Translations under genes and position numbers: made by a program
Source of the DNA: Eubacterium sp.
GTDB taxonomy: Bacteria; Bacillota; Clostridia; Lachnospirales; Lachnospiraceae
Length of the DNA stretch: 64,000 nucleotides
Assembly: GCA_017433825.1 (NCBI GenBank)
Contig: JAFRGL010000007.1
Coordinates: 1-64,000 of the forward strand
Reading direction: 5' to 3'
Notes under the pieces: generated by a model
Told to the model about the DNA's origin: nothing
What the model saw: the letters and a program-made list of their open reading frames with translations, nothing else
Database searches by the model: none
In this document: one piece after another, positions 9,838 through 31,439 of the stretch
Position numbering within the stretch: position 1 is the stretch's first letter
Layout: every line of letters starts with the position of its first letter

Positions 9838-9862
9838 TACTTGTTTTACAACCAAATAGTTC

Positions 9863-10098
9863 ACGTACGGCGCAGCTTCAATCTGTAAAGGCATAAATGC
9901 CAGGATTCCGGCTTAAAGAGGAAGAAGGGGGAACCCGACACGACCGGTGCTGTGAGCGAAGAGGGAAGGCCTGGGCTTTCGCAAGAAAGCCCGGAGGAAA
10001 GTCCGTCATTGTGGCTGAAAGAAAGCCATGAGAAGGCAGGCCGACCCGGTCAGGCAGGGCCTGAAGATTCGCAAGTCAGAACATTCGGCGTCGTACGT
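9863..10098 (+). ncRNA. structured RNA, copy 2 (cobalamin-riboswitch-like or new class)
   Basis: A diverged duplicate of the RNA at 8973. Closing stem ACGTACGGCG (9863-9872) pairs with CGTCGTACGT (10089-10098) with one G-U. The hairpin at 9971-9994 keeps its helix while changing a T-A pair for the C-G of copy 1, and its loop is GCAA instead of GTAA, which supports a selected GNRA-capped stem. TGGCT/AGCCA replaces TGGC/GCCA. GACCGG and CCGGTC are kept, compatible with a pseudoknot. AAGTCAGA near the 3' end recalls the B12 box. The next intact gene is the secreted protein at 10557. Its promoter is not recognised. Confidence 0.62.
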
Positions 10099-10179
10099 AT
10101 GTAACATGGGGCAGACGGACTCTTACACATGTCAGGGTTTTTCTGCCCCCGTTTGCAGAAATATACCTGACTGGTCGGA

Positions 10180-10217
10180 CCGCTGTCTCACGGATAAAAG
10201 ACAGCGGTTTTTCTTTT
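10180..10217 (+). terminator. terminator downstream of structured RNA copy 2
   Basis: A perfect 9-bp stem CCGCTGTCT/AGACAGCGG is followed by TTTTTCTTTT. Copy 1 has the same stem with one mismatch. GCAGACGG at about 10111 could compete for its 5' arm. Confidence 0.85.
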
Positions 10218-10289
10218 GCCCCGGTTTCACCGGCGCAAAGAAAACCAAAGTGCTGCGGGTCTCCTCACTTTGTCTTTTCAGGAAGAAAC

Positions 10290-11642: not shown

Positions 11643-11652
11643 GGTGGTAGAA

Positions 11653-14722: not shown

Positions 14723-14822
14723 GTCTGAGCTTTGAAGAGTTTATAAAGCTCTTCTGTCCACAGGAGAGTTTTATAAACTTTTGATAGGAAGAAAGAACGT
14801 GATTATATTAACAGGAGTATTC

Positions 14823-16034
14823 ATGAAGCGTTTAACAAGAAAACTAACGGTATTTTTATGTGTGATTTTTACAGTAATATTGTCTGTTTCTGTAACGGCA
14901 GAAGAACCTGAGCTTGATAAAAAGATAGAAGATACAGTTGCCGGTATTTCTTCATTAGACAGTGCCACAGGGATGAGACTTGCCGATCAGGAGAATTTTC
15001 CTGCCGGAGAATCCATTAATGACTGGACGGCCTGTAATCTGTCTTATGGAGGAAGCAAAGAGTACTATGCGGAATACCTGAATGCTTTACGAACATATGT
15101 CGAAAGAAAGTATGCTGAAGAGGGATCGATTCATGAAGTGAAAGCAACCGAATATCATCGTATTGCCCTTACCGTTATGGCGTTAGGAGGTGATCCGGAG
15201 AGTTTCGGGCAGAAGCCGGATGGTTCACCAATAAACCTCATTGCTGACGGAACTTATAACTTTGTCGGGGAAAATTTGGGTTTACAGGGCCTGAATGGAT
15301 GGATATGGGCATTGATTACCCTGAACGCCTCTGGTGCGGAAGTGCCTGTGGATGCGAAATATCAGATTCAGGACATAGTGGAGGCTATCCTTGCAGGACA
15401 GGAGCGTGACGGTGGCTTTGGTCTGGATAACGGAGGATCAGACGTAAATATCACAGCTATGGCTCTGCAGGCCTTATCTCCTTATGCACTAGATCATCAG
15501 AAGGAAATACTCAATGCACTGAACTGGCTTTCCTTGCAGCTGAATGACGATTGTACTGTCGGAAAAGAAAACAGCTCAGAAAGCATTGCACAGATAATCA
15601 TGGCACTTTGTTCCCTGGAGTTCGATCCGGAGGAGCCGTCTATGTTTGTGAGAGGTGATCATACATTACTGACGGCTTTAGACAGCTTTCGGCTGCCGGA
15701 TGGTACATACACACATTCAATCGATGAAGAAAAGGGCAATAGCATGTCCACCTGTCAAGCTCTGGAAGCTTTGATTTCCTTACGGGAGTATCACTGTGGT
15801 GCGGGATATGTTTTTTCTCAAGGATACAATATACCAAATCAGAACAGCGATCCGCTTCCGGATAACATGTCAGAATCGAATGAAAAGAAGCCTATTGGAA
15901 ATTCGGCACTGGAAAACGAAGTTGTGGTCAGAACAAAAGCACCAGGAAATAAGCTGGTACCGATTCTCATTATTTTGATTATAGTCATCATCGTTCTGAT
16001 TGTAATCGGTCTGCATAAAAGGCAAAGAAAGTGA
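14823..16034 (+). CDS. membrane-anchored alpha/alpha-barrel protein, intrinsic-factor alpha-domain-like (1)
   Basis: 403 residues from ATG 14823 (AGGAG six bases upstream). A signal peptide (about 1-26) precedes a helical-repeat domain to about 345 with terpenoid-cyclase/prenyltransferase-type repeats: GLQGLNGWIWALITL, DGGFGLDNGGSDVNITAMALQAL, SESIAQIIMALCSL, STCQALEALISL. Residues about 375-397 are a C-terminal TM followed by KRQRK, anchoring it to the membrane with the barrel outside. From memory, human intrinsic factor has the like-placed motifs TGAMATLALT, MSIAQILPSL and STGLAMQALS, which is why I favour the cobalamin-binder alpha domain over a cyclase; the catalytic DXDD of squalene-hopene cyclases is absent. 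Paralogues lie at 26649 and 27937. Confidence 0.78.
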   Translation: MKRLTRKLTVFLCVIFTVILSVSVTAEEPELDKKIEDTVAGISSLDSATGMRLADQENFPAGESINDWTACNLSYGGSKEYYAEYLNALRTYVERKYAEEGSIHEVKATEYHRIALTVMALGGDPESFGQKPDGSPINLIADGTYNFVGENLGLQGLNGWIWALITLNASGAEVPVDAKYQIQDIVEAILAGQERDGGFGLDNGGSDVNITAMALQALSPYALDHQKEILNALNWLSLQLNDDCTVGKENSSESIAQIIMALCSLEFDPEEPSMFVRGDHTLLTALDSFRLPDGTYTHSIDEEKGNSMSTCQALEALISLREYHCGAGYVFSQGYNIPNQNSDPLPDNMSESNEKKPIGNSALENEVVVRTKAPGNKLVPILIILIIVIIVLIVIGLHKRQRK

Positions 16035-16055
16035 AACGCTGAAAGGAGGGTCATC

Positions 16056-19000
16056 ATGAAGAAAAGATTGTTTGTTTTTTTATTAAGTCTGTTCGTTTTA
16101 CTGATGATGGCAGCATCAGTTTCTGCAGCAGAAGAAGGTTATTTTGTTCTGACAGTATGTACAGCTAACAGTGTAGTAGTTCGGCCGGAGCGAATTTATT
16201 ATACAGAAGGTCAGTCGGTTAAAGAAGCTCTGCTGGCATCCGGACATGAATTTACCGGTTTGGAAGAACGGGATTTTATCGATGCGGTAGATGGTGTCGC
16301 GGCTAATTATACAATGCTTTATGATAATGGCGGTTATAGTCTGGAGATTCCGGCAAGTGAGATTTCCGCTTTACGATTTGGCGTTACCGATGTTTCTGCT
16401 GACTACCAGGAAGAGATGTTTTCACTTATTTATCTTATGGCTGAATACTCCGATATGGACAACCACGTTCAGAATTACCCTGATGCACAGGAAGCCTACA
16501 AACTTTGCCTGAATGCTATCCGGGGGAACGGCTCTTCAGCAGCAACTATGAAAAGAAATCTGGAACAAAAGATCGCTGAATATGAAGCGGTTTTGAACGG
16601 CCCCAAGTATTCGGTTTCTGTGACCGCAACCCAAGATGGAGCACCGTTGAACCATCTGAATCTGCGTATGGTTGACAGTTACGGGAATGAAACCACTGCG
16701 GAAGGAAATGTTATTAATGTGATAGCCGGTGACTATTCATTCGCTGTTTCCGACGGAGGATATAACAGGACAGAAGGCACAATTACCGTGTCTGAAAACA
16801 CCTCCTTACAGGTTCTGCTTCCGACTGGAGAGTGGTTTGGCGAAATGTATATGCGCAGTTACAATGTATTAATGGGATATAGTGAGCCTTATGAATCTGT
16901 ACAGGATAAAGAACAACATAAAACAACTTTTTATGTGGACGATACGGCAGATGGGTATTATGGGACAAACTTGGTTGTCACAGTTGGTGATTTACCTGAT
17001 TCTACGACAACAAAACTTAGGACTATTTATATATCTGTAGATGGAAGAGATTTCTCTAACTCAGACAGAAGTTGGAGTAATGGCAGTTCCAGTTATGGGA
17101 ATTTTTTGGATTCACTGGTCAGACAGGGAATGGAAGGACGCAGCTTTCGTATTGAAGGACAGTATCCGGATGAGAACGGTCATCTGCAAATTCAGTCTTA
17201 TAATATTGAAGTGATCAGAGTGCCTACCCTTCAGTCGCTGGTCGTCATGGCAGACGGTTCACGATTATCTTTAGGAAATCAGGGATATACACAGTCCGGA
17301 AGATTATTGCCCATAGACTATGTAACAGATACTATGGAATTATCTCTGACGACAGTTTCTGATACACTGGATATTACGGCTGTTCCTTTTGACGAATCCT
17401 ATGCGGTAACTGGACTTGGCCATATTGCCGTAAATGACGGTGCCTCAGAACATGAAGTGGTTGTTATAGCACCAAATGGAATTGAAAGCACATATCATAT
17501 TCAAATTACAAAAACAGATGCAGTACCTGTGTCACTGATCATTCCCGAAAACGTTACAGTAGAAGTCACAACGAATATGGGCGCAAAGGTTGAGCCCGTT
17601 GATGGTATCTATTATCTTGTACCTGGGGAAACATATACATATACAGCTACAAAAGGAAAGTATTATCATTCGACAGCGCCTTTTACTGCAGAACAGGGAC
17701 TTACAGTTAGTGTTGCAGACCCAGTTATGGAGAATTGGCTAACCGGATTCTGTATTTACAATGGTCTTGCTTATCAGTCTGAAAACATCATAGATCCTTC
17801 GGTTGTTTTTCAGCCGACTGTACATGAGTATCATTATACTTTGAGTGATATGACTACTGCATTGTATTTTAAAGCATCCAAAGAAAAGGGGGCGGTTTAT
17901 GTTCAGTATCCCGTGCAAGCATCTGCCGGAACTCAGATATATGGAGATATCAAAAAAATCGAGATAACATCTGTATTAGGTGAACAAACCATAACAAACG
18001 GAGCATCTATACTGGCTCAGGGCGGATATAGCAATCAATTCACAATTTCGGTTGAATATGAAGAGAACGGAGTTACCTATTCTCAGGAATACTATTTTAT
18101 AGTGGACAGGAAGCTGCATATTCTGGAACTAACAGCGAGAAGTAAAGAAGAGAGCCTGACCTGGTTGGATGACAATGGCAATCCTGTGGAATTTGACAGA
18201 GATATTTCTAACTATAAAGTTCTGATAGACCGAGATGCAACGGAGATAGTGTTGAACGGTCAGGTCCCGGGTAATTATTCTGCTTTTGAGATGTACAGAG
18301 GCGGTTACATTTGTACGGAAAATGGCAATCATTATAATTCATATGTAGAGCAAGTACCTCTACTTGGAACTCGTGTCTTTCTTGAAGAAATGCATCTACC
18401 GCTGGATACTGGCCTTGAACAGGAGGAATTCAAATTAGAACTGACCCATGTAGATCCCGGGTCAGTGAAAACCGAATATACAATCACTGTCCTGAAGACA
18501 GAGCCGGTAAACGTGACAGTACAAACAGAACCAGGTAATGTAATATTTGTTATAACCAATGATATCAACGGCAAGCGGGTGTTTCCCGAAAACGGTGTAT
18601 ATCCTTTGACCGCAGGAGGCAGTTATACATATACGGCTACTTGCTACGGCTATATCGGAAAAAGGGAACAGTATACAGTTCCTGATATGGATGCGGTATT
18701 GTCTATAACACTGGAAAAGGCAGCAGAATACAGCGGTATAGTTGAAGTTCCGTCTTTATGGCCCCAGCTACGGCAGAATAATGATAATAACGGAGTAATT
18801 AATTATCCTGTCCCGATTAAAGCTGATGACACCGTAGTTTACTGGGCAAAACGGTATGGTGAAGGTTATAGTGACGGTGCGGTCAGTCCCCCTATTCTAG
18901 TAGATGGGAACCTTATCGTATATAGTGGCAACCACCTTTATAAAATTGATGACGCTACCGGTGATATTCTTAATACGGGAACTATGGAAACAGTTTCCTC

Positions 19001-20525
19001 CTTTGCCATTAATCCGCCCACCTATGCAAACGGAATGATTTTTGTGGGACTACGTAACGGTACGATTCAGGCTTTTAATGCCAGCACATTGGAGTCTCTT
19101 TGGGTATATCATGATCCCCTGGGCGGTCAGCCGAATTGCACCATTACATATCAAAACGGCTACATCTATACAGGTTTTTGGGTTGGAGAAAACAGTGAAG
19201 CAAACTTTGTATGTCTATCCACAACGGATGAAGACCTATCCTCCGGCGTAGAAGAAAAGCTTCCTGTCTGGACGCATAAAACTTTAGGAGGTTTCTACTG
19301 GGCCGGTGCTTATGTGTGTGATAACTTTGTCCTCATCGGGACAGATGATGGAGATCTTTCCTATGACAGGGGCCTGCCTTTGCTTCTGTCGCTGGACCCG
19401 GAAACAGGTGCTGTAATCAGTTCACAGAAATTGTCCGTAGCAGGAGATATCCGCAGTTCGATTACCCATTATAATGGTAAGTACTACTTTACAAATAAAG
19501 GCGGGTATTTCATGGAGGCTTCCGTTGATGAATCAGGAACTATTGTAGGGATACGGTATCTTAACCTTGGCGGGATGAGTACCAGTACTCCGGTGGTCTA
19601 TAACAATCGGGCCTATATCGGTGTGTGCGGAAAAGGTCAGTTCAGGGCGGATTCCGGACATGGTATTGTGGTTGTCGATCTGGCCAACTGGGAGATAGCC
19701 TATTCTGCAACTACGCGTGGTTATCCACAGACAAGCGGTATTCTGACAACTGCTTATGAGGAAGAAACCGGAAAGGTATATGTATATTTCTTTGAGAACT
19801 TTACACCCGGAAAGCTCAGAATTTTGGAAGACGCACCAGGGCAGACTGAACCCAGTTTGATTACGATAGAAAACGAAAAGGATTTTGCTTATAACCTTTT
19901 CGAACCTGTGGGAGAACATGCGCAATTTGCGATTTGTTCGCCTATTGCAGATACGAACGGTACCATCTACTTTAAAAATGATTCAGCTTATCTGATGGCA
20001 GTAGGAAGTACAATTGAAGAACTGGAAGTAGTCCAAAATCCGGCCAAGATGACTTATCAGGAAGGGGAAATCTTCGACGGAACCGGACTGAAGGTAACCG
20101 CGCACTTTTCCAACGGTACCAGCCGGGATGTTACGCAGTACATGAAATGGTCGGAAGAACCGCTGAGTGCGGAAGATACAGATTTCGCATTGGAATACCC
20201 GATTGTACTATATCAGAATGTCGAGCAAGAGGATGGTTCTATGCTGACAGGTGTAGAGGTTACTCCGCCGATTGCTACGTTATCCTTGCAGATAGAATCC
20301 GAAACTTCGGTGAAATACGGAGATGTAAACGAGGATGGCGCGGTTGATTTGAAGGACGTTAATGCTGTATTCAGAATTGTCTCCGGTAATGTGGCTGCAA
20401 CCGATTCTCAGAAGGCAGCCGGGGATGTGAATGGAGATGGTTACGTTGATTTGAAAGATTTAAATCTGATATTCAAGAAGGTGTCCGGGCAGATCGCTGT
20501 ATTTCCGGTGGAAGAAACATCGTAA
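16056..20525 (+). CDS. large secreted beta-propeller / Ig-like / dockerin protein
   Basis: 1489 residues, ATG after AAAGGAGGG. Signal peptide about 1-24. Residues about 25-115 could be a transcobalamin-like small beta domain (YTEGQSVKEALLASGHEFTG, FIDAVDGVAA). About 390-482 and nearby hold cadherin-like/beta-sandwich modules. About 800-880 is a beta domain (KTEPVNVTVQTEP). About 902-1312 is a PQQ-type beta-propeller (SPPILVDGNLIVYSG, INPPTYANGMIFVGL, STSTPVVYNNRAYIGV). About 1322-1415 is a Big_3-like Ig domain (YQEGEIFDGTGLKVTAHFSN). The end is a dockerin (DVNEDGAVDLKDVNAVF, DVNGDGYVDLKDLNLIF). BtuG of Bacteroides, a surface B12 binder, is also a beta-propeller; shared function is a hypothesis. 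It is 21 nt after the alpha-barrel gene. Confidence 0.82.
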   Translation: MKKRLFVFLLSLFVLLMMAASVSAAEEGYFVLTVCTANSVVVRPERIYYTEGQSVKEALLASGHEFTGLEERDFIDAVDGVAANYTMLYDNGGYSLEIPASEISALRFGVTDVSADYQEEMFSLIYLMAEYSDMDNHVQNYPDAQEAYKLCLNAIRGNGSSAATMKRNLEQKIAEYEAVLNGPKYSVSVTATQDGAPLNHLNLRMVDSYGNETTAEGNVINVIAGDYSFAVSDGGYNRTEGTITVSENTSLQVLLPTGEWFGEMYMRSYNVLMGYSEPYESVQDKEQHKTTFYVDDTADGYYGTNLVVTVGDLPDSTTTKLRTIYISVDGRDFSNSDRSWSNGSSSYGNFLDSLVRQGMEGRSFRIEGQYPDENGHLQIQSYNIEVIRVPTLQSLVVMADGSRLSLGNQGYTQSGRLLPIDYVTDTMELSLTTVSDTLDITAVPFDESYAVTGLGHIAVNDGASEHEVVVIAPNGIESTYHIQITKTDAVPVSLIIPENVTVEVTTNMGAKVEPVDGIYYLVPGETYTYTATKGKYYHSTAPFTAEQGLTVSVADPVMENWLTGFCIYNGLAYQSENIIDPSVVFQPTVHEYHYTLSDMTTALYFKASKEKGAVYVQYPVQASAGTQIYGDIKKIEITSVLGEQTITNGASILAQGGYSNQFTISVEYEENGVTYSQEYYFIVDRKLHILELTARSKEESLTWLDDNGNPVEFDRDISNYKVLIDRDATEIVLNGQVPGNYSAFEMYRGGYICTENGNHYNSYVEQVPLLGTRVFLEEMHLPLDTGLEQEEFKLELTHVDPGSVKTEYTITVLKTEPVNVTVQTEPGNVIFVITNDINGKRVFPENGVYPLTAGGSYTYTATCYGYIGKREQYTVPDMDAVLSITLEKAAEYSGIVEVPSLWPQLRQNNDNNGVINYPVPIKADDTVVYWAKRYGEGYSDGAVSPPILVDGNLIVYSGNHLYKIDDATGDILNTGTMETVSSFAINPPTYANGMIFVGLRNGTIQAFNASTLESLWVYHDPLGGQPNCTITYQNGYIYTGFWVGENSEANFVCLSTTDEDLSSGVEEKLPVWTHKTLGGFYWAGAYVCDNFVLIGTDDGDLSYDRGLPLLLSLDPETGAVISSQKLSVAGDIRSSITHYNGKYYFTNKGGYFMEASVDESGTIVGIRYLNLGGMSTSTPVVYNNRAYIGVCGKGQFRADSGHGIVVVDLANWEIAYSATTRGYPQTSGILTTAYEEETGKVYVYFFENFTPGKLRILEDAPGQTEPSLITIENEKDFAYNLFEPVGEHAQFAICSPIADTNGTIYFKNDSAYLMAVGSTIEELEVVQNPAKMTYQEGEIFDGTGLKVTAHFSNGTSRDVTQYMKWSEEPLSAEDTDFALEYPIVLYQNVEQEDGSMLTGVEVTPPIATLSLQIESETSVKYGDVNEDGAVDLKDVNAVFRIVSGNVAATDSQKAAGDVNGDGYVDLKDLNLIFKKVSGQIAVFPVEETS

Positions 20526-20697
20526 CTTATGAAGACTGCATTTAGATATTGATGGGAGTGAGGTTTTATGTTGTAATAGAATTAGGTTATTAGCGAATGT
20601 TTTCTGATTCGGTGTATTGTAGTCAACGACATGGCTATGGAGTAGCGATGACAATCCTTACACTGTCGGAAAACGGTTATGATGAAGGGATAAGTTT

Positions 20698-20967
20698 ATG
20701 AAAGTCTTGATGATAAAGCTTCTGTTTTTGAGTGCTTTTGGGTTATGCTCTCTTCCGTTTCTTTCTGTCATTTTACAGTTTCTTGATATGAAAACCGGCT
20801 TTGGCCACGGCTATGGATTTCATACAAACAGTCTGTATTATATAACCGAAAGCCCGCTTGTTTACTTGCTTTGCTACTTCATTGTTTGTATCTTGATAGG
20901 TATATTGTATTTTTTGCGTTTAAATTTTCGAAAGAAAAAGGAGAAAAGAGAAGAAGATAATCTGTAA
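20698..20967 (+). CDS. small two-TM membrane protein
   Basis: 89 residues with hydrophobic segments at about 4-27 and 60-80, a loop between them, and a basic C-terminus (RKKKEKREEDN). GAAGGGATAAG precedes the ATG. No family is recognised. It ends the AT-richer gene set and is followed by the dispersed terminator hairpin. The 170 nt before it hold no gene. Confidence 0.6.
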   Translation: MKVLMIKLLFLSAFGLCSLPFLSVILQFLDMKTGFGHGYGFHTNSLYYITESPLVYLLCYFIVCILIGILYFLRLNFRKKKEKREEDNL

Positions 20968-20995
20968 AAGACAAACATAATAATCCTACGTTACG

Positions 20996-21024
20996 GCTTC
21001 CCCTCATTTCGAGGGGAAGCTTTT
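20996..21024 (+). terminator. intrinsic terminator at the end of the AT-richer cluster
   Basis: A perfect 10-bp stem GCTTCCCCTC/GAGGGGAAGC is followed by TTTT. It is the same hairpin as at 7527. Confidence 0.82.
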
Positions 21025-21105
21025 CCAATAGTGCGCCTGGCGGCGCGTCACCGGCGCTCAGCGCCCCCAGGGGAAGGCGAACCCCCGGCCCAAGGGCCGG
21101 GGGAT
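21025..21105. repeat. GC-rich dispersed intergenic repeat
   Basis: A second copy of the sequence following the terminator at 7527 (AATAGTGCGCCTG, then ACCGGCGCTCAGC, then CCCCCGGCC/GGCCGGGGG). It is non-coding. Confidence 0.7.
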
Positions 21106-21131
21106 AGTGATTAATTTTGCTGTGTAAATAA

Positions 21132-21870
21132 TCAGTCGACGGGTTCGTATTTGGCGAGGCGTTCCTTTAATCTGCGGAGCTCCTGCTCGGCGGCATCGGC
21201 ACGCTTGGCTTCCGTGTCTGCCCTTTTATCGGCGGCGTCGGCACGCTTATCGGCGGCATCGGCACGTTTGGCTTCTTCGGCTTTGCCGGCTTCATACTGT
21301 GCACGCATGCTGAAGTCATACATGATCCGCTGCCAGCAGGCTTCGCGGACGCGTTCGTCATCATTTAACATTTTTATGGTAGTTTCCATATTTTCAAAGA
21401 CCTCATTTTCTTTGCATAATGGTTCCAATTCCGATAACGACTGTGCCTTGAACAGATTTGCCCATGTAAGGAGAAGCTGTTCCCGGGGAGAGTCATCGGC
21501 AAGATTTGTTCTGGTAAGATCCAGCACAAAGATACCCAGCTTGTCGGAATACAGATGGTTATTTTTGACGTTAAGGACTCTGTATTCGGAGAAGAACTCC
21601 GGATTATCCTTAAAAAGTGTAAATCCCAGGATGCCGATATGGTAAGCTGGAAGGAGAGCAGGTTTTGTCTCCAATGGCCTCGCCGTAGATAAGAGGGTTC
21701 TGTACGGTGCATTCTGTTATATCCGTTACCGGAATATCCAGCAGAGCGGCTGTCAGATGCTTCAGTACAAGTTCGGATTCCTGCATGACGGCGTGGAACA
21801 TATAGTCGTTCTGAAGACCGTAGAACTGTTTTTTGTCAGGAACCGCAGTTTTTTGTAAATCGTTCGTTAT
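21132..21870 (-). pseudogene. Rpn/PD-(D/E)XK transposase-family nuclease, broken
   Basis: Minus strand. The N-terminal part DKKQFYGLQNDYMFHAVMQ and VTDITECTVQNPL, and the C-terminal part KPALLPAYHIGILGFTLF then a heptad KRADAAD repeat, fit the recombination-promoting nuclease (Rpn, PF12784-type) family. Between them the central nuclease part is missing and the frame shifts near 21650 (the two frames overlap at 21610-21801 and 21132-21674). The expected start, seven bases after AAAGGAG, reads ATA (21868-21870) instead of ATG. Both lesions make it a pseudogene. Such nucleases are multi-copy, repeat-associated genes. Confidence 0.75.
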
Positions 21871-22220
21871 AGGCTCCTTTCCGCAGGAGCGTATGATTTA
21901 CGGCTGTCCGCCCCTGCAAAAATGAAATGTTTTGGAAAAGCAGGGACTTTCATAAAGACAGGAATAAAAGAACAGCTTGCGCTGAAGATACGATTTGTTT
22001 CTGAAAGAAATGCTTTTCAATGGATACATCCATTATAAAACGGTGGTAAAGCCGTATCAAGACAAGTGTTTTTTACCTGTAGTAAAGAAGAGTAGAAAAA
22101 CCCCGCCGGCGTGTGCTGGCAGAGCATCCAAGGACTGTTTACAGAGAACCGGAGGCTCTGATTGTCATCTGTGCTTCCGCGGCGATGCCGTTGTGTTCAT
22201 AGAATTACTGTCAGAAATAG
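21871..22220. other. intergenic stretch without recognised genes
   Basis: I see no convincing gene. A short plus-strand frame (21995-22264) has no ribosome binding site, no known motif, and overlaps a terminator hairpin. The segment separates the Rpn remnant from promoter element copy C. Confidence 0.5.
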
Positions 22221-22261
22221 GCCTCAAAACAGTTGAGAAAACAGCTGTTTTGGGGCTTATT
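22221..22261 (+). terminator. hairpin upstream of promoter element copy C
   Basis: The 12-bp stem GCCTCAAAACAG/CTGTTTTGGGGC (one G-U) is followed by TTATTTG. It would insulate promoter copy C from upstream transcription. Confidence 0.5.
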
Positions 22262-22278
22262 TGAGGTAAAAATAAAAA

Positions 22279-22386
22279 TTCTCAAATTTTTTGATTTTCA
22301 GAGCAAAAGTTCTCAAAATTTTACGCCAAAAATCGGCCAAAATCGGGGATCCCGTGACGGTTTGGTGACGGTGGGTATGTTATACC
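22279..22386 (+). promoter_or_regulatory. dispersed promoter element, copy C
   Basis: TTCTCAA boxes start at 22279 and 22310 (31 bp), GTGACGG boxes at 22354 and 22365 (11 bp), and a -10 TATACC at 22381, 16 bp after the second GTGACGG start. The inter-pair gap is 44 bp as in copy B. It directly precedes the cohesin-dockerin gene at 22435 with no riboswitch in between. Confidence 0.8.
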
Positions 22387-22434
22387 TATAGTGGAAGAAA
22401 GTTTGTGTTTTGAACCTGAAAAAGGGACAGTGAA

Positions 22435-23475
22435 GTGAAAAGATTATTAAGCTTGTTTTTCGTTATCTGCCTGTTTACGGCAGCGGTATTTCCGGCTTCA
22501 GCGGATACGGGTTATACCGTGACCATGGGCGCGGACCAGACGGCGGTCAAGGGAGAAACGGTGGCCGTACAGGTGGTCATCGGCCATTCCGGCGGGAAGA
22601 GTACTTTTAACGCAGTGGATATGACATTTACCTATGATACCGCGAAGCTGGAGCTGACGACAGCCTCCCTTTCCGGCTTTTCGCTGACGAAGGAAGCGGG
22701 CAAAGTCCGGGTGATGGGCTACGGCCAGGACAGGGAGTGCGGCGGAACAGCTTTTGTGCTGACCTTTAAAACCCTGGCGACAGGGCGGACCGAGGTGAAG
22801 GTGACGTCCGCAAAGGTGGACAGTTCAAACCATGCGGTAAGCGCGGATGCGCCGCAGGCGGACCTTACGGACAATGCGACGATGATTACCATCGGCCTGA
22901 AATCCGATACATCCTCTTCCGGCGGCGGACACGTTCCGGGTGCGGGAGGAGGTTCCGGAGGAGGCGGTGCCGGACAGGCCGGTACGCCTGTGACGGAAGC
23001 GGATTTTGACGGGCTGTGGGTGCTGCCCTACGTGGAGCTGGACGGCAGTACGGTTTTTCTGACAGCCATTGCCGGCGACCCGGGGAAGGACAGTACATAC
23101 GCCTTTGACGGGGTTCCGATGTATTATACGGCGAAATACACCGGGAAAAATGCCGCAATAGGGCAAAAGGTTTATCTGGCCCTGACCATTGCGGGATCGG
23201 GCGAACCGGTGATTAACAGTGAGATAGCCGGACGGATTTCACTGGTGAAAGAGAAGAGTCAGACGCTTGCATATGAAAAAGACGTCAACGACTCCGGCAG
23301 TACGGATTTGACGGACGTGCGGCTGATTTACGATATTTACAACGGACAGTTTGCCGGTTTCGACGATCTTTCCATGGAACGGTTCCTGCATGCGGACCTG
23401 AATCTGGACGGCAGGATCAATGTGAAAGATGCGGCGGCATTGATGGATATGATTAAAATGGGAGGCATAAGATGA
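22435..23475 (+). CDS. secreted cohesin plus dockerin protein
   Basis: 346 residues, GTG start after AAAGGG. Signal peptide about 1-23; cohesin-like domain about 25-160 (VAVQVVIGHSGGKSTFNAV, MTFTYDTAKLEL, GRTEVKVTSAKVD); Gly-rich linker 160-182; a conserved pre-dockerin domain (WVLPYVELDGSTVFLTAIAG) also found in the protein at 11653; and a dockerin with NDSGSTDLTDVRLIYDIY and DLNLDGRINVKDAAAL. It is an adaptor able to dock onto one partner and recruit another. First gene after promoter copy C; overlaps the next gene by ATGA, so an operon begins here. Confidence 0.82.
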   Translation: MKRLLSLFFVICLFTAAVFPASADTGYTVTMGADQTAVKGETVAVQVVIGHSGGKSTFNAVDMTFTYDTAKLELTTASLSGFSLTKEAGKVRVMGYGQDRECGGTAFVLTFKTLATGRTEVKVTSAKVDSSNHAVSADAPQADLTDNATMITIGLKSDTSSSGGGHVPGAGGGSGGGGAGQAGTPVTEADFDGLWVLPYVELDGSTVFLTAIAGDPGKDSTYAFDGVPMYYTAKYTGKNAAIGQKVYLALTIAGSGEPVINSEIAGRISLVKEKSQTLAYEKDVNDSGSTDLTDVRLIYDIYNGQFAGFDDLSMERFLHADLNLDGRINVKDAAALMDMIKMGGIR

Positions 23476-24542
23476 AAGCCAGACGACTGATAACTGTATT
23501 TTTGAGTGTATTTCTTCTTTGTGCGGCTTTGGCGGTGCCCGTTTCCGCCGAGGACAGCAGCCGGAGTTATGATTTCAAGCTGACGGCGGACGGACAGACG
23601 GAAGTCACGGCAACTGAGGGCCAGGTACTGACCTTTACGCTGGTGCTTTCGCGCACGGACAGTTCAGAGGATGCGGAAATGTACGCCATGCAGGCGGAAT
23701 TTGAATACGACGACACCTTCTTTGCGCTGGTGGAAAATTCGGCCATGACGGGCTCGGGCATCGAATGGACGGATATGGCGAGGCGTACGGGCGGCAGGGT
23801 TTTTTACCTGAACTATGTCTCCATGACGGGCGGGCAGATGTGGCCGTCTGAACTGCTTATCGGTACGTTCCAGCTGAAGGTTATCGCCAAAGGAGGCGTG
23901 TCGTCCGTGACGGCGAACAACTGCCTGGTATCCGTGAAAGACGGCTCGGATTCCTTCACCAGCACCTGCAACGACGTGCGGGTGATCGTGGGGACGGAAT
24001 GTACCGTTACCTTCGTCTCCAACGGAGGAAGCGAGGTGGAAGCCCAGAAGGTGCAGTTCGGTGAAAAGATAAAGAAGCCGGCGGATCCCACCCGGGAGGG
24101 GTATGATTTCAACGGCTGGTATGCGGATCTTGACCGGACGAAGGCCTGGAATTTCGATACCGATACGGTGCAGGGCAACATGACCCTGTACGCAGGCTGG
24201 CTGGAAGCTTCCGGCGGAAGCAGCGGCGGCGGTTCACCGGAAAAGGCCGGCGGCATGCCCGGCTGGGTAATCCCGGCAGTTATCGCTGTTGCGGCGGTGA
24301 TCGTGATCCTCGCCCTGCTGGCGGCAAACCGGAAAAAGAAGGTAACCTTCGAGACGAACGGCGGCACGCAGCTTGACCCGGTGTACGTGAAGAAGGGCGA
24401 AAAGCTTGACCGTCCGATGACACCGTCAAAGCCCGGCGCGATGTTCGCTGGCTGGTTTAAGGATCCGGACGGTACGCAGCCGTGGATATTCGAGAGAGAT
24501 ACCGTGGAAGCAAATATGACGCTTTATGCGAGATGGAGATAA
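23472..24542 (+). CDS. membrane-bound cohesin-like protein with InlB-type repeats on both sides of a TM
   Basis: 356 residues, ATG in a 4-nt overlap with the upstream stop. Signal peptide about 1-27; cohesin-like domain about 30-170 (YAMQAEFEYDDTFFALV, SSVTANNCLVSVKDG); a Listeria-Bacteroides (flg_new/InlB B) repeat about 175-243 (VTFVSNGGSEVEAQKVQFGE, YDFNGWYAD); Ser/Gly linker; TM about 258-282; then NRKKK and a second repeat (VTFETNGGTQLDPVYVKKGE, AGWFKDPDG). By the positive-inside rule the second repeat would be cytoplasmic, which is odd for this extracellular module. It may serve as the membrane anchor for dockerin proteins. Confidence 0.78.
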   Translation: MKARRLITVFLSVFLLCAALAVPVSAEDSSRSYDFKLTADGQTEVTATEGQVLTFTLVLSRTDSSEDAEMYAMQAEFEYDDTFFALVENSAMTGSGIEWTDMARRTGGRVFYLNYVSMTGGQMWPSELLIGTFQLKVIAKGGVSSVTANNCLVSVKDGSDSFTSTCNDVRVIVGTECTVTFVSNGGSEVEAQKVQFGEKIKKPADPTREGYDFNGWYADLDRTKAWNFDTDTVQGNMTLYAGWLEASGGSSGGGSPEKAGGMPGWVIPAVIAVAAVIVILALLAANRKKKVTFETNGGTQLDPVYVKKGEKLDRPMTPSKPGAMFAGWFKDPDGTQPWIFERDTVEANMTLYARWR

Positions 24543-24588
24543 AACCTTCCCCTTCGGGGAGAAACTGACATAGCAGGAGGCAGCAGCA

Positions 24589-26574
24589 ATGAGAAGAAAG
24601 GGACTGGCAGGAATCATAAGCACGGCGCTGGTGATAGTGCTGATACTGATCCTCGGGATGGTTCTGTCCAGTGCCGGGCGCAGACCGCCTGAGAATCCGA
24701 TAGAAGAAACAGCGGAGACGCTGTACGCCGAAACCATGTCCGGCAGCAGCGTTTCACGGAAACCCAAAGAGCCGGAAGAGGAAGATCCGCCTCCGATAGA
24801 GGAAGAGGAGCCGGAGGTGACGCCGACTCCCACGCCTACGCCGACGGTCACACCCACGCCGGAACCGGAAAGGGAGACGACCCCGACACCTGAGCCTCAG
24901 TCGGAGCAGCAGGAACCGCAGAAGGAAGAGGAAAAGCCTGCCGAGGGCGGTGAGTCCCACGGCAGCGAGAATTCCGGTAATGAGCAGGGCGGCGGCAATG
25001 CTTCCGGTGAGGAAGGCGGCGGCAATTCCGGCGGCACCGGGGACAACGGCAGCGAAGGCGGTGAAGGAGGAGGCGCGGATGAGGACAATACGCCCCGCAT
25101 TTACACCGACCTTTACAACAACATGTATATCACCAAATCCGAACTGCCGGACGGGAAACTGGCATTTCAGGCGTACGCCCTGGGCAAGGGAAATAACCTC
25201 TCTGTCCGGGTGGTGCTGCAGAATGCAAACACCCCGGCCAACGGTACGGTATTGAAGTCTTCGGACAATAAGAATTATACGGCGGAGTTGGCATTCAACG
25301 CGTCGAATTATGTGACGATTTACCTGAAGGAAGACGGCATCAATATTGCCTATGTCCGCTACAAGATCAGTTATTACGCCGACAAGGCGGATGAGGAGCA
25401 TCCGGAGGTGGGCGATTATCCGCCCACCATCGTGACCAGCCTGGACGGCGCTTCCCTGGACATCAATATCCAGCATATTGTGTTCTGGGTGAAGGCTACG
25501 AAGCATCCCGAACTGGGCGGCGGAACCATTTTCTCCAACCAGATCCAGGTCTGGCTGAACGGGGAGCTGCAGGAGAAGCAGAGCGGGGACGCCCGGCCGG
25601 AGTACGATCTTTATTTCCCCATACCGAATGTGGGGGATTTTGCCACCCATGTGGTGAAGGTGCTGGCCTGGGACGGAAACGGCAATTCGACTTACAAATA
25701 TTATACCGTTAATTTCGAGCGGATTCCGGAGGGCATGCCCACCGGCAAGGTGACCGTGGTGCTGGACGGCACGGCGGCAGGTCTGGGAATTATGGACATA
25801 GGGGAAATGGACATTCTCGGCGGCGAAACCATTGCCTCCGTGGTGGTCCGGTTCCTGCAGGAATACGGCTATGAGATTGTCTATGACGGTACGACGGACA
25901 ATGCGTTTTATTTGAGGACGATCGGAAGGGCGGATATCGGCAAGTATTCGCAGATTCCGGCGGATCTGCGGACGTACCTGGAACGTGACGGCGCGACCTT
26001 TACGGGCCGGCCGAAGAGGGACTGGCTGGGTGAATTCGATTATACCCGGGGAAGCGGCTGGATGTATTCGGTAAACGGCGTGGTGTATGCCGGCCGGGGC
26101 ATGAGCGCGTACCCGGTGCAGGACGGCACCACCATCTATATCCGGTTCACGATGGCCTACGGCAAGGATATCGGAGGCTATGACGCCACGGGCAACAATT
26201 ACGGGCTGCTGTCGAGCTACTGCCGGGTGTGGATCAACGGTACGGTGCAGGATCTGGGGCATGATTTCCGGGAAACCGGAAGAGTGCCGGCTACACCCAC
26301 GTCGGACGGCTACGTGGAATACACCTGCAGCAGGTGCCACGATACGAAGCGGGAAGTCCTGCCGGCCACAGGCGGCGAACCGGATCCGACGGTGACGCCG
26401 GAGCCCACGGAAGAGCCGACACCGACGCCTACACCGGAACCGACACAGGAACCGACACCGGAGCCCACGGAAGAACCGACACCGACGCCCGCGCCGGAAC
26501 CTACGGAAGAGCCGACACCGACGCCCGCGCCGGAACCTACAGGGGAGCCTGGCGGCGGGACGGAGGAGCCGTGA
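24589..26574 (+). CDS. membrane-anchored transcobalamin-like (DUF4430-like) protein with Pro/Thr-rich arms
   Basis: 661 residues, ATG after AGGAGG. An N-terminal TM (about 6-27) anchors it. Residues 50-110 are Pro/Thr/Glu-rich, 110-165 Gly/Ser-rich. About 170-385 are beta-rich domains. About 388-531 resemble a transcobalamin-type beta domain: GETIASVVVRFLQEYGYE, GSGWMYSVNGVVYAGRG, YPVQDGTTIYIRFT. Then a CSRC zinc-ribbon-like tail and TPEPTEEP-type repeats to the end. GWMYSVNG is the family's most recognisable string. It lies between the cohesin and alpha-barrel genes, so alpha-like and beta-like parts of a vertebrate-type B12 carrier are adjacent genes here. An LPATG in the tail has no sorting tail after it. 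Confidence 0.76.
   Translation: MRRKGLAGIISTALVIVLILILGMVLSSAGRRPPENPIEETAETLYAETMSGSSVSRKPKEPEEEDPPPIEEEEPEVTPTPTPTPTVTPTPEPERETTPTPEPQSEQQEPQKEEEKPAEGGESHGSENSGNEQGGGNASGEEGGGNSGGTGDNGSEGGEGGGADEDNTPRIYTDLYNNMYITKSELPDGKLAFQAYALGKGNNLSVRVVLQNANTPANGTVLKSSDNKNYTAELAFNASNYVTIYLKEDGINIAYVRYKISYYADKADEEHPEVGDYPPTIVTSLDGASLDINIQHIVFWVKATKHPELGGGTIFSNQIQVWLNGELQEKQSGDARPEYDLYFPIPNVGDFATHVVKVLAWDGNGNSTYKYYTVNFERIPEGMPTGKVTVVLDGTAAGLGIMDIGEMDILGGETIASVVVRFLQEYGYEIVYDGTTDNAFYLRTIGRADIGKYSQIPADLRTYLERDGATFTGRPKRDWLGEFDYTRGSGWMYSVNGVVYAGRGMSAYPVQDGTTIYIRFTMAYGKDIGGYDATGNNYGLLSSYCRVWINGTVQDLGHDFRETGRVPATPTSDGYVEYTCSRCHDTKREVLPATGGEPDPTVTPEPTEEPTPTPTPEPTQEPTPEPTEEPTPTPAPEPTEEPTPTPAPEPTGEPGGGTEEP
26398..26560 (+). 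repeat. Pro/Thr/Glu-coding tandem repeat within the transcobalamin-like gene
   Basis: In-frame repeats of about 30-36 bp built on GAGCCGACACCGACGCC and CCGGAACCTACGGAA, encoding TEEPTPTPAPEP-type wall- or surface-spanning sequence. Likely to vary in copy number between strains. Confidence 0.7.
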
Positions 26575-26648
26575 GGAGACAGTACGAAGAACAGCAGTGA
26601 AGAACCTGAAATGCTGAACCATTGCGCATAAAGGGAGACAGAAAGGGT

Positions 26649-27932
26649 ATGAAAAAAGCGAGAAACTTTAGAAGGCTGGCGGTATTGCTGCTGAGTATGC
26701 TGCTGGCGGCAGCGCCTGCGTTAAGCGTTGCGGCCGATGATGCCGGCCTTGACGAAAAGATAGCGGAAAGCGCTTCGGCTCTTTCCTCATTGGAAACAGA
26801 GGCCGGCACGCGGCTGGCGGACCTGGAGAATTTCCCTGCGGGAAATTCGGTGAATGACTGGACGGCCTGCATATTGTCCTACAGCGGCAGCGGGGAGTGT
26901 TATTCCGACTATCTGGACGCGCTGCGGGCTTATGTGGAGAAGGCTTATGAGGAGAAGGGCCTGCTTCATGACGTGAAGGCAACGGAATACCACCGTATCG
27001 CCATGACGGTGATGGCGCTGGGCGGAGATCCGACAGCCTTCGGCACGACGCCGGAGGGCACGCCCATCAACCTGATAGCGGACGGCACGTACGATTACGC
27101 AGGCCGGGATCTGGGGCTGCAGGGCTTAAACGGCTGGATCTGGGCTTTGATTACCCTGAACGCTTCTTTTGAGGAGGTGCCGGACAGCGCTAGGTACCAG
27201 GTGCAGGATATCATCTCGGAGATCCTTGCCGCCCAGGAACCGGACGGCGGTTTCGGTCTGGAAAGAGGGCGGTCGGACGTGGATATCACGGCCATGGCGC
27301 TGCAGGCTTTGGCGCCGTATGCGGGTCTTTATCAGGACGAAATAACGAACGCTCTGAACTGGCTGTCCATCCAGGTAAATGACGACTGTACCGTGGGGAA
27401 CAGCGAGGAAAGCGGCTCGGAGAGCATTGCCCAGGTCATCATGGCGTTGTGCGCGCTGGAAATCGACCCGGAAGCGCCGACGGCTTTCGTCCGCGGTGAC
27501 AATACACTGTTGACGGCTTTGGATAAATACCGGCTGGCGGACGGCAGCTATCTGCATGTCCTGAATGAGGAAACGGGCAACAGCCTGTCCACCTGCCAGG
27601 CGCTGGAAGCGCTGCTTTCCGTGCGGGCTTTCCACCGAGGCGCGGGCTTCGTCTTCTCCCAGGGCTATAACATTCCCAATGAGAGCGGTGCGCAGGCAGG
27701 GACGTCTTCGGGACAGGGCAGCGGCCAGGCTTCCGGCCAGGGCGGTACCTCCGGCAGTCCGGCTTCCGGGCAGAATGACGCGTCCGGCGGCTCAGCTTCC
27801 GGCCAGGGCAGTGCCTCCGGGGGCTCAAATGCGCAGAACGGTACAAATTATCTGCCGGTGATTATTATCATCGCGGCTGCGGCCGCGGCGGTGATTATTG
27901 CGGCAGCTGTGATGAAGAAGAGAAGACAATAA
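26649..27932 (+). CDS. membrane-anchored alpha/alpha-barrel protein, intrinsic-factor alpha-domain-like (2)
   Basis: 427 residues from ATG 26649 (after AGAAAGGGT); the TTG frame start at 26622 adds a tail not needed for the signal peptide. Signal peptide about 1-29, barrel to about 345 with GLQGLNGWIWALITL, DGGFGLERGRSDVDITAMAL, SESIAQVIMALCAL, STCQALEALLSV, then a long Gly/Ser/Gln linker (GSGQASGQGG type), TM and MKKRRQ. Very similar to the protein at 14823 but in GC-richer codons, and with a linker absent there. The human intrinsic factor motif MSIAQIL (from memory) parallels ESIAQVI. Five nt before the third paralogue. Confidence 0.78.
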   Translation: MKKARNFRRLAVLLLSMLLAAAPALSVAADDAGLDEKIAESASALSSLETEAGTRLADLENFPAGNSVNDWTACILSYSGSGECYSDYLDALRAYVEKAYEEKGLLHDVKATEYHRIAMTVMALGGDPTAFGTTPEGTPINLIADGTYDYAGRDLGLQGLNGWIWALITLNASFEEVPDSARYQVQDIISEILAAQEPDGGFGLERGRSDVDITAMALQALAPYAGLYQDEITNALNWLSIQVNDDCTVGNSEESGSESIAQVIMALCALEIDPEAPTAFVRGDNTLLTALDKYRLADGSYLHVLNEETGNSLSTCQALEALLSVRAFHRGAGFVFSQGYNIPNESGAQAGTSSGQGSGQASGQGGTSGSPASGQNDASGGSASGQGSASGGSNAQNGTNYLPVIIIIAAAAAAVIIAAAVMKKRRQ

Positions 27933-27936
27933 TATC

Positions 27937-29187
27937 ATGCTCCTTTCATTCCTCTTTAAAGAAGCCGGGGGTGCGGCAAAACACCCTCCGGCTTCGGTAA
28001 AACAGACAAACAGAAAAGGTTTTGCTGCGGGCGGAAAGCGGTTTATCTGCCTGGGGATGGCGCTGGTACTGACAGGCTTGTTTGTGCGGCTGCCGGCGGT
28101 GCATGCGGCTGAGAATTCGGCGGCTTCGGCGGATACCGCCTGGCTGGAAGAGCGTATTTCCAGGGCTTCCGAAGGGCTTTCGGCGCTTATGTCCGAACCG
28201 GGGGAGCTGCTGCATGCGGAGAGGATGCATCCGGGTTCTTCGGATGACTGGCTGGTCTATTCCCTGGCCGTCAGCGGCAGCCGGGAATATTATACGGACT
28301 ATCAGCAGCGGATAAAGGAGCATGTGGAAGAGCGGTATGCGGCCGACGGCCTGCTGGATGAGGTTAAGGCCACGGATTACCACCGGACGGCTATCGTCTA
28401 CCATACGCTGGGCGGAGACCCGGAGAACTGCGGGAAGAAGCCGGACGGTTCGTCCGTCGATTTGATTGCCGACGGAACGTATGACTACGTGGGGCGCGAA
28501 CTGGGCCTGCAGGGAATGAACGGCCTGGTCTGGGCGCTTCTGACACTGGATTTCTTTCAGACGGAGATACCGGCGGACGCGAGGTACAGCCGGCAGGATA
28601 TTATCGATGAAATATGCGCCTTGCAGGAGCCGGAGGGCGGCTTCGGCCTGAACCCGGGCGGCTGCGACGTGGACATTACGGCAATGGTGATCCAGGCGCT
28701 GGCGCCTTACAAGGCGGACTGCGGGCAGGTGATAGAAGAGGCGCTTAACTGGCTGGCTTCCGTGGAGACGGACACCTGCGGGTTCATCAATTACCATCAG
28801 GAGAATGCGGAAAGCGTTTCCCAGGTTATCCTGGCTTTGTGTTCCTTGGGCATTGACCCGGAGGAGGATCCGCGGTTCGTGAAGGGGAATCTTACGCCGC
28901 TGGCCAACCTGGAGCGGTTTTCCTTCCCGGACGGTACCTACGGGCATTCCCTGGCAGATATCAAGGGGGACGGCATTGCCACGGCCCAGGCGCTGCAGGC
29001 ACTGGTTTCGGTGCGGAATCTGCGGCAGGGCGGAAGATACGTATTTGCGGCCGGGACGGAAATTTCCCTGAATGATAAAAAAACCGGTATCAGCCATGTG
29101 TGGGTGATTATACCGGTGGCGGCAGTTGTGATTATTTGCGTTGTTCTGGTTGTGAAAAAGACCGGAAAAGCAGCTAAAAAGGTGTAA
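27937..29187 (+). CDS. membrane-anchored alpha/alpha-barrel protein, intrinsic-factor alpha-domain-like (3)
   Basis: 416 residues. The N-terminus is longer than in the paralogues (about 32 residues before the hydrophobic GMALVLTGLFV), so the true start may be internal. Barrel repeats are kept: GLQGMNGLVWALLTL, EGGFGLNPGGCDVDITAMVI, ESVSQVILALCSL, ATAQALQALVSV. The C-terminal TM (about 385-405) is followed by KKTGKAAKKV. More diverged than the two others: the SIAQ motif is SVSQ, and Cys residues differ. Last gene before the 64-bp tandem repeats. Confidence 0.75.
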   Translation: MLLSFLFKEAGGAAKHPPASVKQTNRKGFAAGGKRFICLGMALVLTGLFVRLPAVHAAENSAASADTAWLEERISRASEGLSALMSEPGELLHAERMHPGSSDDWLVYSLAVSGSREYYTDYQQRIKEHVEERYAADGLLDEVKATDYHRTAIVYHTLGGDPENCGKKPDGSSVDLIADGTYDYVGRELGLQGMNGLVWALLTLDFFQTEIPADARYSRQDIIDEICALQEPEGGFGLNPGGCDVDITAMVIQALAPYKADCGQVIEEALNWLASVETDTCGFINYHQENAESVSQVILALCSLGIDPEEDPRFVKGNLTPLANLERFSFPDGTYGHSLADIKGDGIATAQALQALVSVRNLRQGGRYVFAAGTEISLNDKKTGISHVWVIIPVAAVVIICVVLVVKKTGKAAKKV

Positions 29188-29398: not shown

Positions 29399-30343
29399 AT
29401 GGAGCGTTTAACAGACCGGATTCAGAGTGAGATTTCGAAGGTAATACTGGGCAAGGATGATGTGATCCGCAAGGTGCTGCTGGCCATACTGGCCAAAGGG
29501 CATGTGCTGCTGGAGGACGTGCCGGGCGTGGGCAAAACCACCATGGCCAACGCGTTTTCCAAGGCGCTGGGGCTTTCGGCCCGGCGTGTGCAGTTCACGT
29601 CCGACACGCTGCCTTCGGACATCATCGGCTTTTCCGTATGTGATAAAAATGCCAATGCCCTGGTGTACCAGCCGGGCGCGATCATGACGAATCTGCTGCT
29701 GGCGGACGAAATCAACCGTACCACCAGCAAGACACAGTCCGCGCTTCTGGAGGCAATGGAAGAACAGCAGGTAACGGTGGACGGCATCACACATGTGCTG
29801 CCGGAGCCTTTCGTGGTGCTGGCAACCCAGAATCCCGTGGGCAGCGCAGGCACCCAGATGCTTCCCGCATCTCAGCTGGACAGATTCTTAATCAAACTGT
29901 CCATGGGCTATCCGGATCGAGCCAGCCAGATAGCCCTGATGCGGGACAGGCATCATGAGAATCCCCTGGATTTCGTGCAGCCGGTGACGGACGCGGAGAC
30001 GCTTACCGGCATCATCGGGGAGGCCATGCAGGTTTATATCTCCGATGCGGTTTACGAATATGTTTCGGACCTGGTGGAGGCCACCAGGAAGAATCCTTAT
30101 GTGGTGCTGGGCATAAGCCCCAGGGGCGCCCTTGCGGCCTGCCGGGCCGCCAAGGCAAATGCCTATCTGGAAGGCCGGGACTATGTGGTGCCGGAGGACG
30201 TGGGTGCCGTCTTTGCGGACGTCTGCGCCCACCGTCTGGTGTTAAGCTCCCGGGCGAGGCTGCATGAGATGACGGCGGAAAATATCACGGAAAATATCCT
30301 TGCGGAAGTAAAAAAACCGGAAGTGAGGGAGTTTAAGGCGTAA
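29399..30343 (+). CDS. MoxR-family AAA+ ATPase
   Basis: 314 residues with a complete MoxR core: Walker A DVPGVGKTTMA, the family-typical TSDTLPSDIIGF, Walker B LLLADEINR, ALLEAMEEQQVTVDG, sensor-1 FVVLATQNP, and a C-terminal ISPRGALAACRAAKA lid. MoxR ATPases act as chaperone-like factors in assembly of secreted or membrane complexes and are usually next to DUF58 and transglutaminase-like genes, as here. The ATG follows GAGAGGAGAGCAAACATAA. The stop overlaps the DUF58 start (TAATG). Confidence 0.93.
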   Translation: MERLTDRIQSEISKVILGKDDVIRKVLLAILAKGHVLLEDVPGVGKTTMANAFSKALGLSARRVQFTSDTLPSDIIGFSVCDKNANALVYQPGAIMTNLLLADEINRTTSKTQSALLEAMEEQQVTVDGITHVLPEPFVVLATQNPVGSAGTQMLPASQLDRFLIKLSMGYPDRASQIALMRDRHHENPLDFVQPVTDAETLTGIIGEAMQVYISDAVYEYVSDLVEATRKNPYVVLGISPRGALAACRAAKANAYLEGRDYVVPEDVGAVFADVCAHRLVLSSRARLHEMTAENITENILAEVKKPEVREFKA

Positions 30344-31437: not shown

Positions 31438-31439
31438 GC

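Follow-up and report, generated by a model that had tools for sequence, protein, structure and literature searches.

A putative cobalamin-controlled, split intrinsic-factor-like corrinoid capture locus in a Eubacterium sp.

The window analysed here is a 64,000-nucleotide stretch of contig JAFRGL010000007.1 from a Eubacterium sp. (assembly GCA_017433825.1). It encodes three alpha/alpha-toroid ("barrel") proteins, two DUF4430 proteins resembling the C-terminal domain of transcobalamin, and a candidate cobalamin riboswitch. In our analysis the window's own genome is G000, its contig is C6, and the window as a locus is L087. We interpret the locus as a probable cobalamin-controlled, split intrinsic-factor-like system for capturing corrinoids at the cell surface, and give this interpretation a probability of about 0.7. 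The surface would be of the Gram-positive type, judging from the relatives. The argument is drawn from sequence comparison, and its main elements are the cobalamin riboswitches and energy-coupling factor (ECF) transporter genes that accompany the family in relatives, a fused form of the two parts in a salvage operon, and a protein at locus L122 that matches both Cobalamin_bind (PF01122) and DUF4430. An earlier note on this DNA had proposed a split corrinoid-capture machine; the gene context favours that proposal, while two of the four beta-domain proteins it had proposed fall away.

The three barrel genes lie on the forward strand: barrel 1 at 14781–16034 (with an internal ATG at 14823), barrel 2 at 26622–27932 (internal ATG at 26649) and barrel 3 at 27937–29187. 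Each predicted protein begins with a signal-like stretch and ends in a hydrophobic helix with K/R after it, consistent with secretion and retention by a membrane tail. Barrels 2 and 3 are paralogues of barrel 1, with 60% and 43% identity to it. Only barrel 3 passes the cut-off of the Prenyltrans toroid family PF00432 (26.8 against 26.5 bits); the remaining pair, at 13.8 and 14.3 bits, are assigned as toroids by paralogy. The earlier note was right about the presence of these three open reading frames (ORFs) with their membrane helices, and about the motifs SIAQI, DV[DN]ITAMALQAL and STCQALEAL within them. Its statement that the class II terpene cyclase motif DxDD is missing also held: the motif occurs in none of the 78 barrel homologues of our alignment A3. 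The last Asp of this motif is the catalytic residue of the cyclases, and in 78/78 rows D-x-D is followed by I, V, M or L. In the same alignment, 55 rows match the prenyltransferase toroid and 5 match the eukaryotic Cobalamin_bind family at E ≤0.1 (best 9.9e-7). Polar positions K83, T85, E86, H88, R89, D118, Q131, N134, D183, D185 and T187 are each conserved in at least 70 of the 78 rows, D185 being N in window barrel 1.

The two DUF4430 proteins, also encoded on the forward strand, are predicted to be anchored in the membrane at their N-termini. The first (4128–5273) scores 52.0 bits against the DUF4430 cut-off of 23.8 (PF14478) and has a weak FecR-like part (17.3 bits, below the cut-off of 24). 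The second (24589–26574) scores 26.0 bits, could be aligned with 32 relatives, and has a homologue in genome G415 at E 2.5e-185. One further DUF4430 place exists elsewhere in the own genome. Work on vertebrate B12 binders links DUF4430 to transcobalamins, assigning it to their C-terminal part (PMC4350170). The domain had also been suggested, in the earlier note, for the protein at 10557–11642 and the N-terminus of the protein at 16056. Both were rejected, having no Pfam match at E 0.5 and reaching at most about 1 bit with either of two home-made DUF4430 profiles.

The neighbourhoods of the barrel family were compared in 80 related loci, picked by barrel match alone, in which genes were counted with home-made profiles. 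A DUF4430 ORF was present in 74/80, and genes for the ECF-T, ECF-A and ECF-S components in 56/80, 53/80 and 48/80. Barrel and DUF4430 were joined in a single ORF in 19/80. MoxR (24/80), DUF58 (23/80), transglutaminase (20/80) and propeller (9/80) genes were found in a minority.

The genomes of all 80 loci were searched for cobalamin riboswitches. A model, R1, was built from the riboswitches of 28 relatives with the window element left out; R1 is largely a sequence model, because the RNAalifold consensus gave a structure of just 15 pairs. It made 60 matches in 54/80 loci, 28 of the matched sequences being its own training set, against a chance expectation of 0.64 hits. Every match was on the barrel strand. 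With L071, found by Rfam, the barrel lies downstream of a riboswitch in each of 55/80 loci, and counting L053, where the Rfam match falls just outside the locus, an upstream same-strand riboswitch accompanies 56/80. Direct Rfam scans of loci confirmed L013, L019, L055, L065, L071, L084 and L114, the last of which is the upstream part of L053. They gave nothing at the RF00174 gathering score (31.5 bits) in L007, L012, L014, L021, L030, L032, L040 or L064; for L032, two genome places matching R1 hits score 38.1 bits. Scores in the related loci scanned ran from 36.9 to 80.5 bits. A simpler motif check, positive in 43/80 loci, misses genuine riboswitches (L059, L066) and was superseded by R1.

A class-wide census found the barrel in 95/291 genomes. 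In a second sample of 40 genomes, taken from the top of the class-wide listing and therefore not random, and possibly sharing species with L007–L086, an above-cut-off riboswitch lay within 20 kb upstream on the same strand for 49 of the 73 barrels listed, in 33/40 genomes. The control directions for these 73 barrels gave 2 (upstream, opposite strand), 8 (downstream, same strand) and 0 (downstream, opposite strand). When only the best barrel of each genome was counted, a same-strand upstream riboswitch was seen in 27/40. Through the neighbourhoods of its relatives, the association predicted for the locus does exceed chance.

Four of the 291 genomes have a protein over the PF01122 cut-off of 25 bits. 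The scores include 51.4 bits for L122, 29.9 for L119 and 25.5 for L121; the riboswitch scan covered these three, and each has a cobalamin riboswitch upstream. The L122 protein (genome G148) is of S-layer type and passes both cut-offs, with 51.4 bits for Cobalamin_bind and 49.9 for DUF4430. Its operon runs from the riboswitch through the PF01122–DUF4430 protein, a barrel, a DUF4430 protein and CbiQ to an ECF ATPase–S fusion, the last being a single 866-residue ORF that holds an ECF ATPase pair and the S component (L122:805–3405, on G148:C40). A search of the PDB with the PF01122-positive protein of L122 reached transcobalamin at E 0.27 only.

The own genome also carries a one-chain version. On contig C16 (locus L107, 9929–11491), a single protein consists of a barrel, two hydrophobic helices and DUF4430, and is followed by genes for CbiQ, a double ATP-binding cassette (ABC) ATPase, an ECF S component, a CbiR-like protein, CobT, CobU and CobS. 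CbiQ, the ABC pair, ECF S, CobT, CobU and CobS score over their cut-offs, and CbiR falls below its own (37.7 bits, cut-off 105). A toroid–DUF4430 protein adjoins predicted ECF and corrinoid salvage genes. On the other side of the fused gene are matches to the gamma and methyltransferase subunits of acetyl-CoA synthase, whose pathway uses corrinoids. The window barrels, with their C-terminal helix, and the window DUF4430 proteins, with their N-terminal helix, would resemble the C16 chain cut between its two helices. A profile of the fused and similar proteins (A6) retrieved cyclase-type toroids, macroglobulin-type proteins and chance chains from the PDB, and no transcobalamin. At a further place in the genome (L108:8093–10384, on G000:C7), a lipoprotein-like protein with two stretches matching the cobalt chelatase CbiK is encoded by the first gene after one of several above-cut-off cobalamin riboswitches of this genome; a position outside the membrane would be unusual for a chelatase.

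The riboswitch candidate of the window lies at 9878–10106 on the forward strand, upstream of the gene at 10557, and matches model positions 1–189 of RF00174 (E 0.74 in a search of 40 kb with all 4227 families). In the RF00174 alignment it keeps a CTGTGAG element, TCATTG-hairpin-GAGAAGGC, and AAGTCAG; at the equivalent points relatives have GAGAAGG or GGGAAGG, and AAGTCAG. The region 9862–10220 is more stably folded than any of 100 shuffled versions (z −4.7). At its end stand a long hairpin and a T-run, a terminator-like structure on the same strand (10177–10219, stem about 10177–10210, loop about 10–12) that may serve as the expression platform. A consensus terminator scan with a loop limit of 8 did not report this hairpin. 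The candidate is also the best R1 match in the window (14.9 bits, E 0.0067), although not the sole one (see 9007–9221 below), and is poorly placed in the MAFFT alignment. The strongest argument that it may be a genuine riboswitch is synteny with L084 and G415. The 10557 gene has a homologue in L084 (phmmer 3.5e-10), where it follows a 55.9-bit riboswitch. In G415 a syntenic operon is headed by a 60.3-bit cobalamin riboswitch, followed by a 2201-residue protein that resembles window proteins in its dockerin only, and then by a run of homologues of 11608/22435, 23472 (twice), the DUF4430 gene at 24589, a barrel, MoxR, DUF58, transglutaminase and propeller genes. Because these syntenic operons carry above-cut-off copies, we regard the window element as a probable, diverged cobalamin riboswitch.

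Other places in the window gave lesser signals. A weaker R1 match (12.3 bits, E 0.035) lies upstream of the main candidate at 9007–9221, and just ahead of the candidate a small protein (9310–9837) contains the homing-endonuclease-associated HNH_repeat (46.9 bits). A partial match to the AdoCbl riboswitch at 1159–1216, before the two-component genes, is probably due to chance (21.5 bits, cut-off 50, E 9.3), and the gap at 20525–22435 holds no cobalamin RNA at E 1.

Several observations weigh against a corrinoid capture function. Some concern the proteins. None of the window barrels reaches the PF01122 cut-off: barrel 1 scores 13.1–14.2 bits, and barrels 2 and 3 have no match at E 0.5; nor does the own genome as a whole have a PF01122 match at E 0.001. 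The nearest PDB chains by sequence are squalene-hopene cyclase toroids (best nine, E 2.7e-10 to 1.6e-8), so that the barrels resemble cyclase toroids in the PDB and not transcobalamin. One DUF4430 profile reached transcobalamin-2 in the PDB at E 0.73 only, and a second gave weak, mostly unrelated matches with no transcobalamin among them. Others concern the locus. The window riboswitch match, at 19.1 bits, lies under the gathering score, and the gene order is rearranged relative to G415. No ECF genes were found on C6 between 1 and 124000. The own genome contains corrin-ring synthesis genes, with CbiD, CbiF, CbiH, CbiL and CbiB over cut-off and CbiG and CobD below it, together with CbiQ at a second place and FecCD permeases at three, and for these reasons other corrinoid sources or importers are possible. 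Finally, an upstream riboswitch was not found in 24/80 loci. For 19 of them, under 5 kb of the locus precedes the first barrel; the five exceptions are L014, L027, L030, L069 and L086. The barrel family is also patchy, occurring in 17/61 near relatives (the own genome counted) and in one of six other genomes of the genus.

Around the barrels and DUF4430 genes, and like them on the forward strand, are genes for a series of surface proteins. The first gene after the riboswitch candidate (10557–11642) encodes a secreted surface protein whose homologue heads the L084 operon. The next (11608–14637) encodes a scaffold-like protein with Big_2 over cut-off, two cohesin-like domains and a C-terminal dockerin-like repeat; its dockerin scores 17.3 bits, below the Pfam cut-off of 22.9, and the cohesin-like and dockerin-like calls come from home-made profiles seeded with the window domains themselves. 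Pfam Cohesin (cut-off 24.1 bits) was found neither in this protein nor in its G415 homologue. The protein at 16056–20525 is a PQQ-type beta-propeller surface protein with a C-terminal dockerin (PQQ_2 32.7 and Dockerin_1 34.2 bits, both over cut-off; Big_3 20.1 bits, just under). Its homologues occur in L007, L084, L013, L009, L065, L012 and G415. The secreted protein at 22435–23475 combines a cohesin-like domain just below the cut-off (23.8 bits) with a dockerin over it (24.6 bits), and that at 23472–24542, also secreted, has an internal membrane helix, Flg_new repeats (137.9 bits) and a weak cohesin-like domain by the home-made profile, with homologues in G415. Downstream of the barrels follow a MoxR AAA+ ATPase (29399–30343; AAA_3 2.9e-55), a DUF58 protein (30343–31437; 24.1 bits, cut-off 23.4), a membrane transglutaminase-like protein (31353–33659; Transglut_core 1.2e-17) and a protein with a cohesin over cut-off (33717–34841; 27.4 bits), whose C-terminal tail of VPDTG, a helix and KKKKRG we take to be sortase-like.

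The same locus encodes a cohesin over the Pfam cut-off (33717, 27.4 bits) and three such dockerins (6957, 52.8 bits; 16056, 34.2 bits; 22435, 24.6 bits). By the home-made profiles, dockerins were seen only in the window, L007, L012, L030, L075, L084 and G415 among the loci compared, and cohesins only in the window, L007, L084 and G415. Since the domains are confined to so few loci, the predicted cohesin–dockerin form is a sub-type and not the rule among related loci. At the other end of the locus, also on the forward strand, the histidine kinase (1509–3323) and response regulator (3298–4131) genes of a two-component system adjoin the DUF4430 gene at 4128, an adjacency which suggests that this system may be tied to the capture locus.

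These parts can be combined into a sequence of events. When corrinoid is scarce the operon would be on, and plentiful cobalamin would shut it through the riboswitch and terminator; cobalamin riboswitches usually act in this direction, switching off when the ligand is present. The toroids, held at their C-termini, and the DUF4430 proteins, held at their N-termini, would then be two halves that close on a corrinoid, an arrangement supported by the one-chain barrel–helix–helix–DUF4430 versions, one of them in the own genome. Dockerins, to judge by the domains, could join the beta-propeller to wall-held or membrane-held cohesin proteins in a larger surface complex. The MoxR–DUF58–transglutaminase set, conserved alongside in a minority of loci, may help in assembly or in release of the ligand. 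The ligand would presumably be handed over to an ECF transporter, with the C16 CbiR-like protein, CobT, CobU and CobS available for remodelling. The full version of this scheme, a cellulosome-like cohesin–dockerin complex for corrinoids with split intrinsic factors, a propeller and scaffold layer, release by MoxR–DUF58–transglutaminase and riboswitch control, is considerably more tentative than corrinoid capture as such, and we regard it as doubtful. If true, present-day bacteria would hold an equivalent of the form from which the animal B12 carriers are presumed to descend.

The surface modules leave room for a different ligand. Cohesins, dockerins, Big, Flg_new and beta-propeller domains are all general surface modules, and the toroid and DUF4430 could likewise be general ligand modules in a locus that is controlled by cobalamin and holds glycans or partner cells. 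The corrin-ring synthesis genes of the own genome would fit this, as would the caution of a reviewer of the 2007 study by Burroughs and colleagues that the ligands could extend beyond B12 (PMC1796856). We consider this unlikely, given that ECF transporters and cobalamin riboswitches stand beside the family far above chance, that the fused form adjoins CobT/CobU/CobS, and that PF01122 and DUF4430 share one protein in such an operon in L122. Another possibility accepts the system in the relatives and holds that rearrangement and partial decay have affected the copy in the window, whose riboswitch no longer senses cobalamin. The low riboswitch score, well under the range of the related loci scanned, points in that direction, together with the gene order unlike that of G415, the broken propeller duplicate at 5428–7487 and the lack of ECF genes alongside. 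Against this, none of the three barrel genes or the two DUF4430 genes is interrupted, all five are conserved, and the riboswitch keeps its motifs and is followed by the terminator-like hairpin; on balance such decay seems rather improbable.

The barrels might instead be enzymes. As surface enzymes acting on corrinoids, for example in stripping or altering the lower ligand, they would account for the conserved polar positions from K83 to T187 and for the CbiR-like remodelling gene in the operon of the fused protein. No catalytic motif was recognised in them, DxDD being absent from the 78 rows, and a role as enzymes and not carriers appears improbable. Least credible, and in our view very improbable, is that they are true terpene cyclases or polysaccharide lyases with no link to corrinoids. 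The squalene-hopene cyclase types among the best PDB matches agree with the former, and Pec_lyase, touched by just 2/78 rows with a best E of 0.015, hints at the latter. Both identities were rejected: DxDD occurs in 0/78 rows, I, V, M or L replacing the catalytic Asp throughout, and the barrels appear to be secreted with a membrane tail and stand in a cobalamin riboswitch context.

The core idea of corrinoid capture by such proteins is already published. Burroughs, Balaji, Iyer and Aravind (2007) predicted that secreted SLBB proteins scavenge B12 or its precursors; these are fused to alpha/alpha toroids, or share an operon with another SLBB protein and CbiO/CbiQ-like transporter genes, a beta-propeller fusion is mentioned, and transfer to animals is proposed (PMC1796856). 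The systems considered here are alike in having a DUF4430-type SLBB and a toroid, separate or fused, and CbiO/CbiQ-like neighbours. They differ in that the own genome has corrin-ring genes, whereas the bacteria of that study usually were without key B12 synthesis enzymes, and the part of the paper seen makes no mention of riboswitches, cohesin–dockerin pairs, MoxR–DUF58–transglutaminase or CbiR/CobTUS neighbours (PMC1796856). The present analysis contributes the association with riboswitches, bacterial proteins that are PF01122-positive and encoded in operons of this kind, the location of the fused form next to CobT/CobU/CobS, and the cohesin–dockerin sub-type with MoxR–DUF58–transglutaminase.

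Animal intrinsic factor, transcobalamin and haptocorrin have the same modules, an alpha/alpha toroid and a C-terminal DUF4430 domain; the window parts are separate membrane-anchored proteins, and the window barrels are under the PF01122 cut-off. In Bacteroides, BtuG is a beta-propeller. The BtuG and DUF4465 lipoproteins of that group would share with the present system the surface catching of B12 to feed a transporter, and differ in acting at a Gram-negative outer membrane with BtuB and with other folds (PMC6143338, PMC10404256, PMC13398666). ECF-CbrT has in common ECF-type import of cobalamin and cobinamide; its S-component itself binds the substrate, and no toroid/DUF4430 capture protein is mentioned in the part of the paper available (PMC5997447). 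Among the papers listed by the literature searches, which left most subscription journals outside, no experimental test of toroid–DUF4430 capture was found. To our knowledge, extracellular B12 capture of the Gram-positive type is poorly known, and the Bacteroides system is well studied. The 2007 proposal that animal B12 carriers came from such bacteria is now directly testable, with concrete proteins, a regulatory signal in relatives, a bacterial protein over the Pfam cut-offs of both halves of the animal carrier, and a widespread family; if true, corrinoid capture of this kind matters for how microbial communities compete over B12 and for where intrinsic factor came from.

Two further features of the window were recorded. 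The ORFs at 5428–6957 and 6957–7487 resemble the C-terminal part of the 16056 propeller split by a frame change, and appear to be a disrupted second copy of that gene in which no signal sequence can be seen. Directly downstream of the locus, a secreted giant protein, in whose first 4,784 residues no Pfam family scores over its cut-off, is encoded on the same strand by a single ORF of 10,491 codons that occupies 36647–64000 and runs on to position 68122 of G000:C6.

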